A stretch of DNA of 64,000 bases, taken from assembly GCF_030816485.1 (NCBI RefSeq), contig NZ_JAUSYC010000001.1, positions 558,001-622,000 of the forward strand, written 5' to 3'. The DNA comes from Arthrobacter sp. B1I2. Lineage in GTDB: Bacteria; Actinomycetota; Actinomycetes; Actinomycetales; Micrococcaceae. The position numbers and the translations under genes were made by a program. Below the pieces are notes generated by a model. It saw only the letters and a list, made by a program, of their open reading frames with translations, made no database searches and was not told the origin of the DNA. Shown piece after piece: positions 19,490-31,252 of this stretch; the stretch's first letter is position 1; each line of letters opens with the position of its first letter.

Positions 19490-20434
19490 TCAGCGCAGGA
19501 CCACGGTCCGGCCGCCGGACAGGATGACCCGGCCTTCAGCGTGCCAGCGCACGGCATTGGTCAGGGCGCGGCACTCGGCATCCTTGCCCACCCGCACCAG
19601 GTCGGCCGGCGTGTAGGTGTGGTCCACCTCGATGACCTGCTGGGAAATGATCGGTCCCTCGTCAAGCTCGGAGTTGACGTAATGAGCGGTGGCGCCCACC
19701 GTCTTCACACCCCGCTCGTAGGCCTGGTGGTAGGGCCGGGCCCCCTTGAAGCTCGGAAGGAACGAATGGTGGATGTTGATGGCCCTCCCACTGAGCCGGG
19801 AGGTTGTGCCGTCACTGAGAACCTGCATATAACGTGCCAGCACCACCAGTTCCACACCGTACGCGTCCACCAACTCAAGCAGCCGGGTTTCCGCCTCGGG
19901 CTTCGTTTCCGGCGTGACCGGGATCAGGTGGAACGGAACGCCGTGCCATTCCGCAAGGCCGGCCGTGTCCGGATGGTTGGAGACCACCGCAACGATTTCC
20001 ACCGGCAGGTCGCCGTCCCGTGCCCGGACAAGGAGGTCGTTCAGGCAGTGCTCGTATTTGGACACCATCACCAGGATCCGCTGCCGGCGGCTATGCGGCT
20101 CCAGCCGCCATTCCATGCCCCAGTCCCCCGCAACGGGACCGAACCGCTCGCGCAGCATCCCGCCGTCGAACTCTTCCTGTGCGGTGAAATGCACCCGCAT
20201 GAAGAACTCACCCGATGCCTTGTCACCAAACTGCTTGATGTCCACGATGTAGCACTCCTGCGCCAGGAGGAACGTGGCTACAGCCTGGACGATGCCCAGC
20301 GAATCCCGGCATTTGAACGTGAGGATGAAATCGGTGGCAGGTGACGGTGCACCCTCGGGATCGCCGGGCATTCCGGCCGGCTGTGCGGCGGGCTGTGCGG
20401 CGGACATGACAGTTGCTGAACCGCCGGCCGTCAT
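19490..20434 (-). CDS. purU: Formyltetrahydrofolate deformylase
   Basis: The 314-residue protein has an N-terminal ACT domain (FILTFKCRDSLGIVQAVATF, about residues 36-110), then a formyltransferase-type hydrolase domain. The latter carries NIHHSFLPSFKGARPYHQAY and AHYVNSELDEGPIISQ, the PurU active-site features. It hydrolyses 10-formyl-THF to formate and THF and so balances the one-carbon pool. The ATG at 20434 overlaps the permease stop as ATGA, so it is in the same riboswitch-controlled operon. In E. coli PurU is regulated by glycine and methionine, which fits control by a glycine riboswitch here. The N-terminal 25 residues are an Ala/Pro-rich extension; an ATG at 20407 is possible. Confidence 0.95.
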   Translation of the reverse strand: MTAGGSATVMSAAQPAAQPAGMPGDPEGAPSPATDFILTFKCRDSLGIVQAVATFLLAQECYIVDIKQFGDKASGEFFMRVHFTAQEEFDGGMLRERFGPVAGDWGMEWRLEPHSRRQRILVMVSKYEHCLNDLLVRARDGDLPVEIVAVVSNHPDTAGLAEWHGVPFHLIPVTPETKPEAETRLLELVDAYGVELVVLARYMQVLSDGTTSRLSGRAINIHHSFLPSFKGARPYHQAYERGVKTVGATAHYVNSELDEGPIISQQVIEVDHTYTPADLVRVGKDAECRALTNAVRWHAEGRVILSGGRTVVLR

Positions 20435-21972
20435 TTCCTGGCCTGCTCAGCCTCGTGCGCAGCAGGATCAGCATCCCGGCCCGCGTTCCGCCCGACGGCG
20501 GCTTCGTCGGCGCGAAGCTCAGCCCGGAAGACCTCGAAGCGGGCCAGGTGCGCGGGCCGGCGCCGCAGAATGGCCCATGCCACGCCGAGGACGGCGAACC
20601 AGATGGGCGTTACCAGCAGGGCGATGAGCGTGTCCGGCTGGGTTGTCAGGGCCCAAAGGACGAAGGCGAAGAACGCGTAGACCACCCACACTGCGGGGAT
20701 GCCGCCGGGCATCTTGAACTTGGAAGCCGCGTGCAGGTGCGGGCGCCGGCGCCGGAAGGAGATGTAGCTGGCCAGGATGATCGACCAGACGAAGACGAAG
20801 CAGACGGCTGACACGGTGGTGACCATTTCGAACGCCTTGCCAATATCCTGGCCGGCATACATGAGTACGACGCCGGAGAGCAGCAGGACGCAGGACAGGA
20901 ACAGTGCGTTGCTGGGCACCTTCCTCCTGGACAGGCGGCTGAAGAGGTTAGGGGCATCGCCTTCCTGGGCGAGGCCGAAGACCATGCGGGAGGTGGAGTA
21001 GATGCCGGAGTTGGCGGAGGACATTGCCGAGGTGAGGACCACCAGGTTGACCACAGTGGCTGCGGCGCCGAGGCCGGCCAGGGAGAACATTCCGATGAAG
21101 GGGCTGTGGCCTGCGGCGAACTGTGTCCAAGGGGTGACGGCCATCAGGATGATCAGCGCGCCAACGTAGAAGAGCAGCACGCGGACGGGGATGGCGTTGA
21201 TGGCCCTGGGCAGGGTGCGCTCGGGGTTCTTGGCCTCGGCGGCCGTGGTGCCCACCAGTTCGATGCCTACGAAGGCGAACACTGCGATCTGGAATCCGGC
21301 CACGAAGCCCATGAATTCGTTGGGGAAGAACCCGCCGTGGCTCCACAGGTTGGTGAAGCTTGCCGTGCCCGCGTCGCTCTGGAAGCCGGTGAAGATCATG
21401 AAGAGACCCACGATGATCAGGGCAGCGATGGCGATGATCTTGATGAGGGCGAACCAGAACTCGGTCTCGCCGAAAGCCTTGACGGTGGCGAGGTTCAGCA
21501 GGAGCAGGATGGCCACCGTGGCCAGGCCCGGGATCCAGAGCGGCAGGGCCGGCCAAAGTTCCCGTGAGTAGCCGGCGATGGCGATGACGTCCGCGATTCC
21601 GGTGATCACCCAGCAGAACCAGTACGTCCAGCCGGTGAAGAAGCCTGCCCAGGGCCCCAGGAGGTCAGCTGCGAAGTCGCTGAAGGACTTGTAGTTCAGG
21701 TTGCTCAGCAGCAGTTCGCCCATGGCCCGCATGACGAAGAAGAGCATGAAGCCGATGATCGTGTACACGAAGATCACGGATGGGCCGGCCGCGGAGATGG
21801 TCTTGCCCGAGCCCATGAAGAGGCCGGTTCCAATCGCGCCGCCGATGGCGATGAGCTGGATATGCCGGTTGGTAAGCTGCCGCTCCAGGTGGGGAGGCTC
21901 GCTGCGGGCTGCCGTGGTGGCGCCGTGATTGCGGGCTGGTTCGCCGTTGGACGTGGGGGGATGAATCGCCAT
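20431..21972 (-). CDS. Amino acid permease, CycA-like (glycine/D-serine/D-alanine type)
   Basis: The 513-residue APC-superfamily protein has twelve predicted membrane helices. The family motif LTNRHIQLIAIGGAIGTGLF lies near residues 30-49, followed by GSGKTISAAGPS and later AFVGIELVGTTAAEAKNPER. Sequence style is close to the D-serine/D-alanine/glycine transporter group. I chose the ATG at 21972, preceded by GGAGTTCCTC, rather than one four codons upstream. A tandem glycine riboswitch in its leader (22021-22208) makes glycine or a closely related substrate likely. It is followed by purU with a four-base overlap. Confidence 0.9.
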   Translation of the reverse strand: MAIHPPTSNGEPARNHGATTAARSEPPHLERQLTNRHIQLIAIGGAIGTGLFMGSGKTISAAGPSVIFVYTIIGFMLFFVMRAMGELLLSNLNYKSFSDFAADLLGPWAGFFTGWTYWFCWVITGIADVIAIAGYSRELWPALPLWIPGLATVAILLLLNLATVKAFGETEFWFALIKIIAIAALIIVGLFMIFTGFQSDAGTASFTNLWSHGGFFPNEFMGFVAGFQIAVFAFVGIELVGTTAAEAKNPERTLPRAINAIPVRVLLFYVGALIILMAVTPWTQFAAGHSPFIGMFSLAGLGAAATVVNLVVLTSAMSSANSGIYSTSRMVFGLAQEGDAPNLFSRLSRRKVPSNALFLSCVLLLSGVVLMYAGQDIGKAFEMVTTVSAVCFVFVWSIILASYISFRRRRPHLHAASKFKMPGGIPAVWVVYAFFAFVLWALTTQPDTLIALLVTPIWFAVLGVAWAILRRRPAHLARFEVFRAELRADEAAVGRNAGRDADPAAHEAEQARK

Positions 21973-22020
21973 GAGGAACTCCATCGATAAAGCGGCTTCT
22001 TGGGTGCCGCAAAAGATTTG

Positions 22021-22208
22021 GTTCCTCCCCGCTCTGTTGTGGACCTGAGAGTTTCCGCAGCCAAAGCCGCTTGCACCGTCGGTGAGCCAGGGACATGCCT
22101 GGCTGCTTTCCAGAGTTGCCTGTCCGCGGCGGTACGGGGGCCTGAGAGTTTCCTGGGGAGGATTTGCTCCTACGGCGCCTGCTGGATGTACCGGCAGGGC
22201 TCTCCCGC
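22021..22208 (-). ncRNA. Tandem glycine riboswitch controlling the permease-purU operon
   Basis: Read on the minus strand, the first aptamer has CGGGAGAG, then GGCGCCGTAGGAGCAA and AACTCTCAGGC. A short linker leads to the second aptamer with ACTCTGGAAAGC, CACCGACGGTGCAAGC and AACTCTCAGGTCC, ending in AGAGCGGGGAGGAACC. These are the conserved elements of the cooperative two-aptamer glycine riboswitch. It ends about 48 bases before the permease ATG. On-switch or off-switch behaviour cannot be decided from sequence alone. It shares 33 identical bases (22150-22182) with the plus-strand riboswitch. Confidence 0.92.
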
Positions 22209-22342
22209 CGCAGGTCGAAGGCGTGTTCAGTTGGAAGCCGCAGCCTTTTGGGCCACAGCCGTCATGCGATGGGATGGGCGCCGGCAACCAGCCGCTCCGG
22301 ATACGCTGAGCCAGCCACTGGCAGGCGCCGATCCCGGGGTTC

Positions 22343-22372
22343 AGTGTGGTGTCCGTCACGATCGAATGTCAA
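22343..22372 (-). promoter_or_regulatory. Candidate promoter for the permease riboswitch transcript
   Basis: On the minus strand a consensus -35 TTGACA (22367-22372) is followed after 18 bases by CACACT (22343-22348), a plausible -10. Transcription would begin near 22336, upstream of the minus-strand riboswitch. For the plus strand, TTGTGA near 22471 followed by TGAATA near 22494 is a weaker candidate for the gcvP leader. The 307 bases between the two riboswitches hold no gene I can support. Confidence 0.4.
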
Positions 22373-22515
22373 ACCCCTCCCGACACAAAGCAGGTGCCAG
22401 CGCGCTTCAGATGCCGGGTCCAGCCCCAAACGCTGCCGCCGATTTGCCAGAGGGCCGCATATCCCGATACCTTGTGAGCCGAATCACCCACATTTGAATA
22501 AGCCTTTCGAGCTGT

Positions 22516-22720
22516 GACGGGAGAGTCCTCCCGGCATCCACCGGGCAGGCGCCGTAGGAGCAAATCCTCCCCAGGAATCTCTCAGGCCCACGTACCGTCA
22601 TGGCGAGGCGACTCTGGAAAGCAACCGGGCTTCAGTCCGGTTCACCGACGGTGCAAGCGGCCCCCTGCCAAGAGCAGGCAACGCGGAATCTCTCAGGTCC
22701 AATACAGAGCGGGGAGGAAC
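22516..22720 (+). ncRNA. Tandem glycine riboswitch controlling gcvP
   Basis: Aptamer 1 has GACGGGAGAG, GGCGCCGTAGGAGCAAATCC and AATCTCTCAGGCCCA (about 22516-22592). Aptamer 2 has ACTCTGGAAAGCAACC, CACCGACGGTGCAAGC and AATCTCTCAGGTCC (about 22608-22700), ending in AGAGCGGGGAGGAACC. This is the classic pair of glycine aptamers found before gcv operons. The gcvP ATG lies about 48 bases downstream, behind GGAGTTCCTC, the same leader as in the permease operon. Confidence 0.95.
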
Positions 22721-22767
22721 CCATCACACGCCGTGCCACCTCAGGCCGGCCAGAACCGGAGTTCCTC

Positions 22768-25620
<2,853 letters not shown>

Positions 25621-25631
25621 GGACCGGCACC

Positions 25632-26768
25632 ATGACCGAGAACTACACCGCCCTTTACGACGAGCACAAAAAGCTCGGAGCCTCGTTCACGGACTTCGGC
25701 GGCTGGCAGATGCCGCTCAAGTACGAATCCGAACTCGCCGAGCACCACGCTGTCCGCAGCGCTGCCGGCCTGTTCGATCTCTCCCACATGGGCGAGGTCT
25801 GGGTGACCGGCCCGGACGCCGCCGCCTTCCTGGATTACGCCCTCGCAGGGAAACTCTCCGCGGTGGCTGTTGGAAAGGCGAAGTACTCGCTGATCTGCGA
25901 TGCCGACGGCGGCATCATCGACGACCTCATCACCTACCGCCGGCCGTCCCCCGAAGAGGGCATGGACAAGTACCTCGTAGTGCCCAATGCGGGCAACGCC
26001 GCCGTGGTAGCCAAGGAACTCCTGGCACGCTCCGCCAACTTTGACGTCACAGTGGAGGACGCCTCTGCGGAGACTTCGCTGATCGCCGTGCAGGGGCCGA
26101 ATTCCGAAGCGATCCTCCTGCAGCTGGTCCCGGCCGAACAGCACGGACTGGTCGCGGAGTTGAAGTACTACGCCGCCGTCGAGGTGGAAATCAACGGGCA
26201 GGACCTGTTGTTGGCCCGTACCGGCTACACCGGCGAGGACGGCTTCGAAATCTACATCCCCAACGGGGACGCAGCCGGCCTGTGGGAAGCGCTGCTGGAA
26301 GTTGGCGCCGGCCACGGGCTGATCCCCGCCGGGCTTGCCTGCCGCGACTCCCTCCGTCTCGAGGCCGGGATGCCGCTCTACGGCAACGAACTCTCCCGCC
26401 GCACCAACGCCTACGCGGCCGGGCTGGGCCCTGTGGTGTCGCTGGCAAAGGAGAGCGACTTCGTGGGCAAGGAAGCCCTGGCCGCCATCAAGGCCGCAGG
26501 AGTCGGTTCAACCATGGGGCAAAAGCTGGTGGGCCTCAAGGGCACCGGACGACGGGCCGCCCGAGCCCACTACTCCGTCCTGAAGGCCGGCAGCCTCGTG
26601 GGGGAAGTGACCTCCGGCCAGCCCTCCCCCACCCTCGGCTACCCCATTGCCATGGCCTACGTTGACGTCGAATTCGCAGAAGTCGGCACCATGCTGGACG
26701 TTGACCTTCGCGGCAAGCCGGAGCGCTTCGAAGTGGTAGCTCTCCCCTTTTATAAGCGAAGCAAGTAA
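25632..26768 (+). CDS. gcvT: Aminomethyltransferase, glycine cleavage T protein
   Basis: The 378-residue protein transfers the methylene group from aminomethyl-lipoyl-GcvH to THF, releasing ammonia. It starts TALYDEHKKLGASFTDFGGW, with LFDLSHMGEV, RTGYTGEDGFEIY and CRDSLRLEAGMPLYGNEL, all GcvT signatures. The ATG at 25632 follows AAGGAC. Length is normal. A 174-base gap containing one arm of a 35-bp inverted repeat separates it from gcvH. Confidence 0.97.
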   Translation: MTENYTALYDEHKKLGASFTDFGGWQMPLKYESELAEHHAVRSAAGLFDLSHMGEVWVTGPDAAAFLDYALAGKLSAVAVGKAKYSLICDADGGIIDDLITYRRPSPEEGMDKYLVVPNAGNAAVVAKELLARSANFDVTVEDASAETSLIAVQGPNSEAILLQLVPAEQHGLVAELKYYAAVEVEINGQDLLLARTGYTGEDGFEIYIPNGDAAGLWEALLEVGAGHGLIPAGLACRDSLRLEAGMPLYGNELSRRTNAYAAGLGPVVSLAKESDFVGKEALAAIKAAGVGSTMGQKLVGLKGTGRRAARAHYSVLKAGSLVGEVTSGQPSPTLGYPIAMAYVDVEFAEVGTMLDVDLRGKPERFEVVALPFYKRSK

Positions 26769-26942: not shown

Positions 26943-27322
26943 ATGAGCAAAGTTGTTTCTGAACTGAAGTACTCCGCCGAGCACGAGTGGGTTGCCGCTG
27001 ACGGAGCCGGACCTGCGGGGATCGGAATATCTGCCGTCGCCGCCGATGCCCTGGGCGACATCGTGTACGTGGACCTGCCCGAGGTGGGCTCCACCGTTAC
27101 CGCCGGCGAGACCTGCGGCGAGGTGGAATCCACCAAGTCCGTCTCCGACCTTTACGCTCCGGTGACCGGTGAGGTCATCGAGATCAACGACGGCGTGGTG
27201 TCCGACCCCGCCCTGATCAACACCGATCCCTACGGGGCCGGCTGGCTCTTCAAGGTGGCCGTTACAGAGGAAGGCCCGCTCATGTCGGCCGAGGAATACG
27301 CAGCAGCGAACGGCGGCGAGCT

Positions 27323-27326
<4 letters not shown>
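26943..27326 (+). CDS. gcvH: Glycine cleavage system H protein
   Basis: The 127-residue carrier protein has the lipoyl attachment site [19 protein letters not shown] with the modified lysine at K65. The N-terminus [12 protein letters not shown] and the later [11 protein letters not shown] are typical. It shuttles the aminomethyl group between GcvP and GcvT, and its lipoyl group is reoxidised by a dihydrolipoamide dehydrogenase not encoded here. The ATG follows AAGGAAAATAGATA. Its stop overlaps a GTG of glyA. lipA, needed to make its cofactor, lies downstream at 30239. Confidence 0.97.
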
Positions 27327-28639
<1,313 letters not shown>

Positions 28640-28797: not shown

Positions 28798-30225
28798 ATG
28801 GCCGTTGGCGTATTTGATCTCTTTTCGATCGGTATTGGCCCTTCCAGCTCCCACACTGTGGGGCCGATGCGGGCTGCTGCCGTTTTTGCGGAGGAGCTCA
28901 AGGGCCTGGGCAAGCTCGCGGAGGTGGCCTCGCTGCGGGTGGACCTTTATGGTTCCCTCGCGGCGACGGGGCATGGGCATGGCACAATGACCGCGGTCCT
29001 GCTGGGGCTGGAAGGGTTCCATCCGGAGCTCATCCTGCCCGACGAGGTGGAAGAACGGCTGGTCGCCATCGCGGAGACCGGGATGTTGCAGCTCGCCGGG
29101 GCGGTGTCCTTGCCGTACGGGGTGAAGGATATGGTGCTGCGGCCGCTGACTGTCCTGCCCCGCCACACGAACGGCATGACCTTCACGGTGTCCGACGCCG
29201 AGGGCAACGTCCTGCACGCCGCCACGTTTTTCTCGGTGGGCGGCGGCTTCATAGTGCGCGAGGGCGAGGAGGACGCCGCCCAGCAGGAACTCGAAGAGTC
29301 CAAGAAGGAACTGCCGCTGCCGTTCCGCACCGCTGCCGAGCTGCTGGAACACTGCCGGGAAACCGGGCTGGGCATCAGCGACGTGATGCGGGTCAATGAG
29401 GAGGACAGCCGTACTCCCGGGGAAATCCGCGAGGGCCTGCTGCACATCTATTCCGTGATGGAGGGCTGCGTAGCCACCAGCCTGAAGCGCGAAGGCGTGC
29501 TGCCCGGGGGACTGAAGGTCCGCCGTCGTGCCCCGGACTGGTACGACCGGCTGAAAAAGGAAAGTTCACGGCCGGACTGTAAAGGCCAGGACCAGGACTT
29601 CTACGACCAGAAGTATTGGCAGGAGTGGGTTAACTTGATCGCCCTTGCGGTGAACGAGGAGAACGCCTCCGGCGGTCGCGTGGTCACCGCGCCGACCAAC
29701 GGCGCGGCAGGGATCATCCCTGCAGTGTTGTTCTATGCGCTGCACTTCGCCCCGGGGATGGAGAACGCCACACAGGAGGACCGCGACGACGTCGTGGTGA
29801 AGTTCCTGCTCGCCGCCGGCGCCGTCGGGGTGCTCTACAAGGAACAGGCCTCCATCTCCGGGGCGGAGGTGGGCTGCCAAGGCGAAGTGGGTTCGGCGTC
29901 GTCGATGGCGGCCGCCGGACTCGCGGAAGTGATGGGCGGGACCCCTGCCCAAGTGGAGAATGCGGCCGAGATCGCGATGGAGCACAACCTGGGCCTGACG
30001 TGTGATCCGATCGGCGGGCTGGTGCAGGTTCCCTGCATCGAACGAAACGCGATCGCCGCGGCGAAGGCCATCAACGCCGCGAAGATGGCGCTCTGGGGGG
30101 ACGGTTCGCACCGCGTCTCGTTGGACGAGGTCATCATCACCATGCGCGAAACGGGCAAGGACATGAGCTCCAAATACAAGGAAACGGCCATGGGCGGCCT
30201 CGCCGTCAACGTCGTCGAATGCTGA
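28798..30225 (+). CDS. sdaA: L-serine ammonia-lyase, single-chain iron-sulfur type
   Basis: The 475-residue enzyme deaminates L-serine to pyruvate using a [4Fe-4S] cluster. The start [20 protein letters not shown], followed by VGPMRAA, is diagnostic. The C-terminal domain has [20 protein letters not shown] and [19 protein letters not shown] with the cluster cysteines. I chose the ATG at 28798 behind TAAGGA; upstream residues in this frame are not SdaA-like. It lies 158 bases after glyA, across the palindromic repeat, and completes a glycine-to-serine-to-pyruvate route. Confidence 0.96.
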
Positions 30226-30238
30226 AGGAAGTACAGAA

Positions 30239-31252
30239 ATGACATTGGCACCTGAAGGCCGGAAGATGCTGCGGATCGAGCAGCGCAACGCTGCGGTCCC
30301 GGTGGAGCGCAAACCGGAATGGATCAAGGCCAAGGTCCAGATGGGCCCGGAGTTCGTCGGGCTGAAGAACCTGGTGAAAAAGGAAGGCCTGCACACCGTC
30401 TGCGAAGAAGCCGGCTGCCCCAACATCTTCGAATGCTGGGAAGACAAGGAAGCCACGTTCCTGATCGGCGGCTCCGAATGCACCCGCCGCTGCGACTTCT
30501 GCCAGATCGACACCGGCAAGCCCTCACCCGTGGACCGGTTCGAACCCACCAAGGTGGCCCGCTCCGTCCAGTCCATGGCCCTGCGCTACGCCACCGTCAC
30601 CGGGGTGGCCCGCGACGACCTCGCAGACGAAGGCGTCTGGCTCTACGCCGAAACGGTCCGCAAGATCCACGAACTGAACCCCGGCACCGGGGTGGAACTG
30701 CTGATCCCGGACTTCTCCGGCAAACCCGACCACATCAAGGCGATCTGCGACTCCGCCCCCGAGGTCTTCGCGCACAACGTCGAAACCGTCCCCAGGATCT
30801 TCAAGCGGATCCGGCCCGCGTTCCGCTACGAACGCTCCCTGGACGTCATCACCCAGGGCCGGAACCTGGGCATGGTCACCAAATCCAACCTCATCCTGGG
30901 CATGGGCGAAACCCGCGAAGAAATTTCCGAAGCCCTCCGCGACCTCCACGAAGCAGGCTGCGACCTGATCACCATCACCCAGTACCTGCGCCCCTCCGAA
31001 CGGCACCTGCCCGTGGACCGCTGGGTCAAACCCCAGGAATTCGTGGACCTCCAGCACGAAGCCCAGGAGATCGGCTTCCTCGGCGTCATGAGCGGACCCC
31101 TGGTCCGCTCCTCCTACCGCGCCGGCCGCCTCTGGGCCACCGCCATGCGCAAAAAGGGCCGCGACATCCCCGCCGAACTCGCCCACATCGCCGACGGCAT
31201 CCAGGACTCCGGCACCACCCGCCAGGAAGCCGCCACCCTGCTGGCAGGCTAA
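30239..31252 (+). CDS. lipA: Lipoyl synthase (radical SAM)
   Basis: The 337-residue protein has both cysteine motifs: [13 protein letters not shown] for the auxiliary cluster and CTRRCDFCQ for the radical-SAM cluster. The C-terminal part includes [13 protein letters not shown] with the conserved RSSY serine ligand. It inserts two sulfurs into octanoyl groups on carrier proteins such as GcvH. It follows sdaA by 13 bases behind GAAGGAAG, so it is co-transcribed. lipB is not in the window. Its place in the glycine operon links cofactor supply to GcvH demand. Confidence 0.97.

Follow-up and report, generated by a model that had tools for sequence, protein, structure and literature searches.

Our results suggest, with a probability that we put at roughly two in three, that two tandem glycine riboswitches of Arthrobacter sp. 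B1I2 are both of the ON type, such that glycine would turn on import (cycA-purU) together with breakdown (the gcvP operon). The two leaders lie head to head in the intergenic span 21972-22768 of the window, the whole 64,000-nucleotide stretch of DNA analysed here, with cycA-purU running leftward and gcvPTH-glyA-sdaA-lipA rightward. As riboswitches they are ordinary for their class; it is their placement that is unusual, with ON-type leaders on both an importer and the cleavage genes. A search of the open-access literature turned up no description of a glycine riboswitch on cycA.

The leftward unit begins with cycA (20434..21972, minus strand), assigned to the D-serine/D-alanine/glycine transporters of the APC family (PF00324), which passes the NCBIfam equivalog cut-off of NF008272 by a narrow margin (735.1 versus 732 bits), and continues with purU (19490..20434, minus strand), encoding formyltetrahydrofolate deformylase (TIGR00655, 318.4 bits; cut-off 285.95). 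PurU strips formyl groups off folate, which is compatible with one-carbon units from glycine cleavage. On the plus strand, gcvP (gcvP1; 22768..25620; TIGR00461, 1324.4 bits) is followed by gcvT (25632-26768), gcvH (26943-27326), glyA (27338-28639), sdaA (28801-30225) and lipA (30239-31252), all assigned by NCBIfam. The identity of the permease bears on a reading in which both leaders are ON, CycA is a glycine exporter or exchanger here and the entire system detoxifies. We consider this quite improbable, given that the best family is the D-serine/D-alanine/glycine transporter at 735.1 bits and that E. coli CycA is an importer. Speaking for it, the available text of PMC5829553 has riboswitches generally raising the expression of glycine cleavage or glycine export genes. 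We favor a model in which both leaders are ON and CycA imports glycine.

The original prediction that each strand carries a complete tandem glycine riboswitch was borne out by covariance-model searches with RF00504 (gathering score 32 bits), run with cmscan on the window and across the whole genome: all four aptamers exceed the cut-off, both aptamers of the minus-strand copy among them. In the cycA leader (minus strand), aptamer 1 lies at 22120..22217 (63.7 bits) and aptamer 2 at 22024..22123 (40.5 bits by cmscan, at 22119-22024; 47.6 bits in the whole-genome search). In the gcvP leader (plus strand), aptamer 1 occupies 22508..22607 (56.4 bits) and aptamer 2 22604..22717 (45.3 bits), the latter being absent from both cmscan runs and detected only by the whole-genome search. 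That search also found a third tandem glycine riboswitch in the same genome, before a second gcvP gene (gcvP2), with an aptamer 2 of 30.3 bits that falls below the cut-off of 32. Separately, gcvP1 (22768-25620, plus strand) and gcvP2 (L036:2967-5816, minus strand) share an identical run of 392 nt between flanks of about 67-95% identity, which suggests gene conversion between the paralogs.

The likeness of the two window leaders is as had been described from the letters: a 33-mer recurs exactly at 22150-22182 (minus) and 22545-22577 (plus), both leaders have the same aptamer-2 end, AGAGCGGGGAGGAACC, and both have GGAGTTCCTC directly before the ATG. The distance from aptamer end to ATG, given earlier as about 48 bases, is indeed nearly equal and counts 47 nt (minus) and 46 nt (plus) from the AACC end. 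Inverted paired arms of 117 nt (85%), 39 nt (92%) and 21 nt (95%) connect the leaders, and since the 21-nt arm spans the ribosome-binding site, start codon and first codons, the likeness extends beyond the ATG. We regard it as homology under constraint, with chance ruled out; transport (cycA-purU) and catabolism (the gcvP operon) each stand, as proposed, behind a homologous tandem glycine riboswitch. A weak Bp1_684 sRNA match, scoring 17 bits (E 0.52) against a cut-off of 44 and covering 22652-22751, was set aside as chance.

Both leaders have the elements that a switch acting on the ribosome-binding site would use. In the cycA leader (minus strand) these are the P3b loop of aptamer 1, TCCTCCCC, at 22155..22162, forming the 5' side of P5; GGGGAGGA after aptamer 2 at 22023..22030, the 3' side of P5, which overlaps the anti-Shine-Dalgarno (anti-SD) segment; and GGAGTTCCTC at 21973..21982, which holds the Shine-Dalgarno GGAG along with the stretch complementary to GAGGAAC. 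Their counterparts in the gcvP leader (plus strand) lie at 22565..22572, 22711..22718 and, before the gcvP ATG, 22758..22767. The segment GGGGAGGAAC after aptamer 2 is complementary both to the aptamer-1 P3b loop (P5) and to GUUCCUC near the Shine-Dalgarno, and because GAGG is common to both helices, P5 and the anti-SD helix are mutually exclusive. Both window platforms fold onto the anti-SD helix (z -2.25 and -2.68). We dropped the idea that the P3b pairing is new, as it corresponds to the P5 pseudoknot for which PMC13104608 cites Torgerson et al. 2020.

These complementarities, their overlap, their occurrence in both leaders and the exchange of P5 partners described below are seen directly; the order of events, the ON sign and the rise in uptake are inferred. 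We envision a scenario in which, without glycine, GGGGAGGAAC would pair with GUUCCUC, which lies between Shine-Dalgarno and start codon, and so impede translation. With glycine present, both aptamers would dock, the aptamer-1 P3b loop (CCUCCCC) would pair with GGGGAGG as P5, taking GAGG from the anti-SD helix, and the start site would presumably be freed. Each leader would be transcribed from its own promoter, and cycA and the gcvP operon would be switched on together by glycine.

Both helices were compared across leaders. A P5 helix of at least 6 bp, G-U allowed, can form in all 104 tandem leaders from near relatives (19/19 for cycA), a count that omits five of 109 hits with one aptamer only (L163, L195, L196 and both of L131), and in 58/58 gcvP leaders of a wider set, drawn from 73 gcvP upstream regions of which 15 were without a riboswitch. 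The anti-SD helix reaches at least 6 bp in 103 of the 104 near leaders and in 25/58 wider ones, where some automatic start codons look wrong (L041, L044). P5 partners swap together across Actinobacteria: the loop CTCCCC is paired with GGGGAG only (48/48 wider, 101/101 near), and CTCTCC, found in 10 wider leaders, is paired with GGAGAG in six, GGGGAG in three and another form in one; in the near set CTCTCC occurs three times, once with the GGAGAG partner. Counting Watson-Crick pairs only, over distinct pairs, P5 scored 6.98 versus 6.55 when shuffled and the anti-SD helix 4.89 versus 4.14, each with 0/2000 shuffles, which ignore kinship. The anti-SD pairing beats shuffles on the near and wide sets combined and on the wide set alone. 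Within the genus no anti-SD covariation was found, because the helix is too constant: 97.3% of cells are paired, equal to shuffles, and no pair shows changes on both sides. The paired share reaches 40-57% in slid registers, and RNAalifold favored a different register, GGGGAG/UUCCUC.

What sign should a cycA leader of this anatomy have? PMC13104608 and PMC6944388 characterize ON switches by P5 and a conserved aptamer 1, and OFF versions by the lack of P5; the former also describes the P5 pseudoknot as frequent in ON switches. Across 15 genomes, aptamer 1 of the cycA leaders is better conserved than aptamer 2 (mean identity 0.948 versus 0.774), as it is in the gcvP1 (0.933/0.765) and gcvP2 leaders (0.940/0.779). 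With P5 present and aptamer 1 better conserved, the cycA leaders thus have the ON-type anatomy of PMC13104608, as available, and lack that of the OFF-type transporter leaders, in which P5 is absent and aptamer 2 is better conserved. Because the cycA and gcvP leaders match in platform, P5 and the conservation of aptamer 1, the cycA leader is expected to be ON like that of gcvP. An ON leader on an importer would be unusual because glycine RNAs on importers are reported to shut uptake off, and this literature supplies the case for an opposite reading, namely that the cycA leader is OFF and that glycine lowers uptake while raising cleavage, as a detoxification pair. Surveys describe transport-gene glycine riboswitches as OFF (PMC6944388; PMC13104608, available text), and a S. 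pyogenes symporter gene was proposed to be down-regulated (PMC5829553, available text). We consider the OFF sign unlikely, since the cycA leader has the platform, ribosome-binding site, P5 and conserved aptamer 1 of the gcvP leader, and opposite signs from platforms so alike would need a difference, of which none was found. The transporter OFF rule may not cover CycA, because it was drawn chiefly from sodium-alanine symporters, which belong to a different family.

The ON reading places the window among known systems as follows. Like the ON-type tandem glycine riboswitches on the glycine cleavage genes of S. griseus, B. subtilis and N. gonorrhoeae (RF00504), each leader has two aptamers, one platform and P5-type pairing, with catabolic genes downstream of the gcvP copy. 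Unlike them, the window has a second ON-type leader, which runs divergently and serves a glycine importer. The gcvT leader of N. gonorrhoeae is described in PMC13104608 as a translational ON switch whose OFF state employs aptamer 2 itself, whereas the window leaders have a predicted post-aptamer anti-SD segment. The glycine riboswitches on transporters (sodium-alanine symporters, S. pyogenes, Vibrio, Bacillaceae) likewise control glycine transport, but are reported as OFF, with aptamer 2 conserved and P5 absent (PMC6944388 and PMC13104608, as available), while the window's cycA leader has P5, a conserved aptamer 1 and an APC permease as its target. Streptomyces gcv-glyA-L-serine dehydratase operons with a tandem glycine riboswitch correspond to the catabolic half of the window; the available part of PMC12452182 mentions no importer or purU with them, and the window has both.

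Among 36 relatives of the same genus, the divergent cycA/gcvP leader pair recurs in at least 14; it is also found in G330, giving 16 loci with the window included. Four further relatives (G008, G023, G033, G034) have a cycA with its own leader apart from gcvP, and G051, of another family, has leaders on both genes. In an order-level sample of 149 genomes, CycA was found at E 1e-150 or better in 21 (23 places), with a riboswitch directly upstream in 5/23 places. In G020 a riboswitch precedes sdaA, lipA and an MTHFR-like gene, with cycA-purU downstream in the same direction. Further leader copies stand before lipA (three loci), sdaA (one) and MTHFR-like genes; two MTHFR-like proteins tested, from L122 and L154, match PF02219 (47.9 and 43.2 bits, cut-off 24) and both fall below the TIGR00676 cut-off. 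The frame opened by the leader ATG closes after 52 codons in L130 and after 34 in L169. Genes for an APC permease and a formamidase-family protein follow a tandem glycine leader of more divergent sequence at L142:6699-9396. In G449 (L230:1085-1500) the leader before cycA was captured together with its start codon, from which a frame of some 12 codons runs and ends before the cycA start; it could possibly encode a leader peptide. No riboswitch relics were recognized in L040 and L232, whose cycA leaders are riboswitch-free (best E 3 and 0.27).

The original prediction had further argued from the identical cores for duplication and inversion of one leader. Homology stood; the argument for a local copy did not, as the cores recur elsewhere. 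The 33-mer is exact in 53/104 tandem leaders, the window's two included (cycA 6/19, gcvP 38/73, lipA 2/3, sdaA 1/1, other 6/8), and cycA and gcvP1 leaders of the same genome are 0.689 identical (15 genomes) versus 0.692 between genomes (210 comparisons). Because the 33-mer is widespread and within-genome identity is no higher than between-genome identity, the shared core reflects constraint and not recency. A recent inverted copy at the locus, kept alike by gene conversion, would account for inverted arms that are 85-95% alike, and recent inverted gcvP1-leader copies are known in four relatives; nevertheless, the equal identities within and between genomes led us to reject it, and the separation of 14/16 divergent cycA leaders (clade at 96) from the gcvP1 leaders (clade at 100) adds to making it highly improbable. 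The copying behind the cycA/gcvP pair is, by these comparisons, judged to be old.

The clades come from a tree of 105 leaders, from which L142, L043 and L077 were omitted and to which four from L227, L230 and L232 were added; its mthfr label includes L164, whose downstream gene is off contig. The 36 gcvP2 leaders group at 96, the 16 divergent-locus gcvP1 leaders group with four MTHFR-like copies and L193 at 100, and the four non-divergent cycA leaders stand together at 99. Two divergent cycA leaders (L125, L126) fall outside the main cycA clade. The tree singles out no particular leader as the donor of the cycA leader. The third leaders of G009, G017, G026 and G035 group with the gcvP1 leaders of their own genomes at 100 and are clearly, as placed in the tree, inverted gcvP1-leader copies. 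Such a third, recent inverted gcvP1-leader copy lies after purU and before an MTHFR-like gene at L122:9547, L124:10834, L128:10788 and L130:10836. The cycA leader of G449 (L230), from another genus, sits among gcvP1-type leaders (group support 78) and, because of that placement, was probably captured separately. In a CycA protein tree of 33 sequences, which took 11 of the 23 CycA places with three genomes entered under other loci, the leader-bearing cycA genes form one group except for G051, with G020 inside, split with support 0.91 from riboswitch-free genes including that of Paenarthrobacter DKR-5. We infer at least two captures of a leader by cycA, in Micrococcaceae and in G051, and probably three or more; the alternative is a single gain followed by several losses.

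Promoter motifs point to how the cycA leader may have arrived. A predicted cycA promoter, TTGACA-N18-CACACT (22343..22372, minus strand), belongs to a motif shared among the divergent loci: TTGACW-N18-CACACT lies upstream of the cycA leader at 16/16 of them and also before the riboswitch-free cycA of L040 (Paenarthrobacter DKR-5), though it was not found before that of L232. Within 22443..22488 (plus strand), the predicted gcvP promoter (22443-22473) consists of TTTGCC and TACCTT, which we take to be its boxes, 19 nt apart, and is overlapped at its 3' edge by a TGTGAN6TCAC palindrome (22473-22487), presumably CRP/GlxR-like. By raw counts with at most one mismatch, this palindrome lies just upstream of 62/73 gcvP, 4/4 non-divergent cycA, 2/3 lipA, 1/1 sdaA and 4/8 other leaders, and of 0/15 divergent cycA leaders. 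From this pattern the window's cycA leader was apparently inserted downstream of an older cycA promoter, probably between that pre-existing promoter and the gene, while other leader copies appear to have moved together with their own promoters. The cycA promoter faces cycA at 16/16 loci, so the promoter segment flanked by the inverted leaders shows no inversion.

These findings raise the possibility, which we hold to be evenly balanced, that the ON-type leader, with its ribosome-binding site, start and first codons, is a portable cassette that the glycine importer gene has captured more than once, so that glycine induces both its uptake and its breakdown. If so, it would represent riboswitch-run positive feedback for amino-acid consumption, contrary to the reported rule for transporters. 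With ON-type anatomy on an importer, the window offers a directly testable exception to the proposal that the sign of a glycine riboswitch and the identity of its conserved aptamer both follow from the kind of gene it regulates, transport or cleavage. The roughly one hundred leaders of near relatives, with copying events of differing age, offer a natural series for studying how leaders are copied from gene to gene. If the ON sign is true, glycine would be a food for these bacteria and not a toxin alone, consumed through a self-reinforcing loop of two like RNAs.
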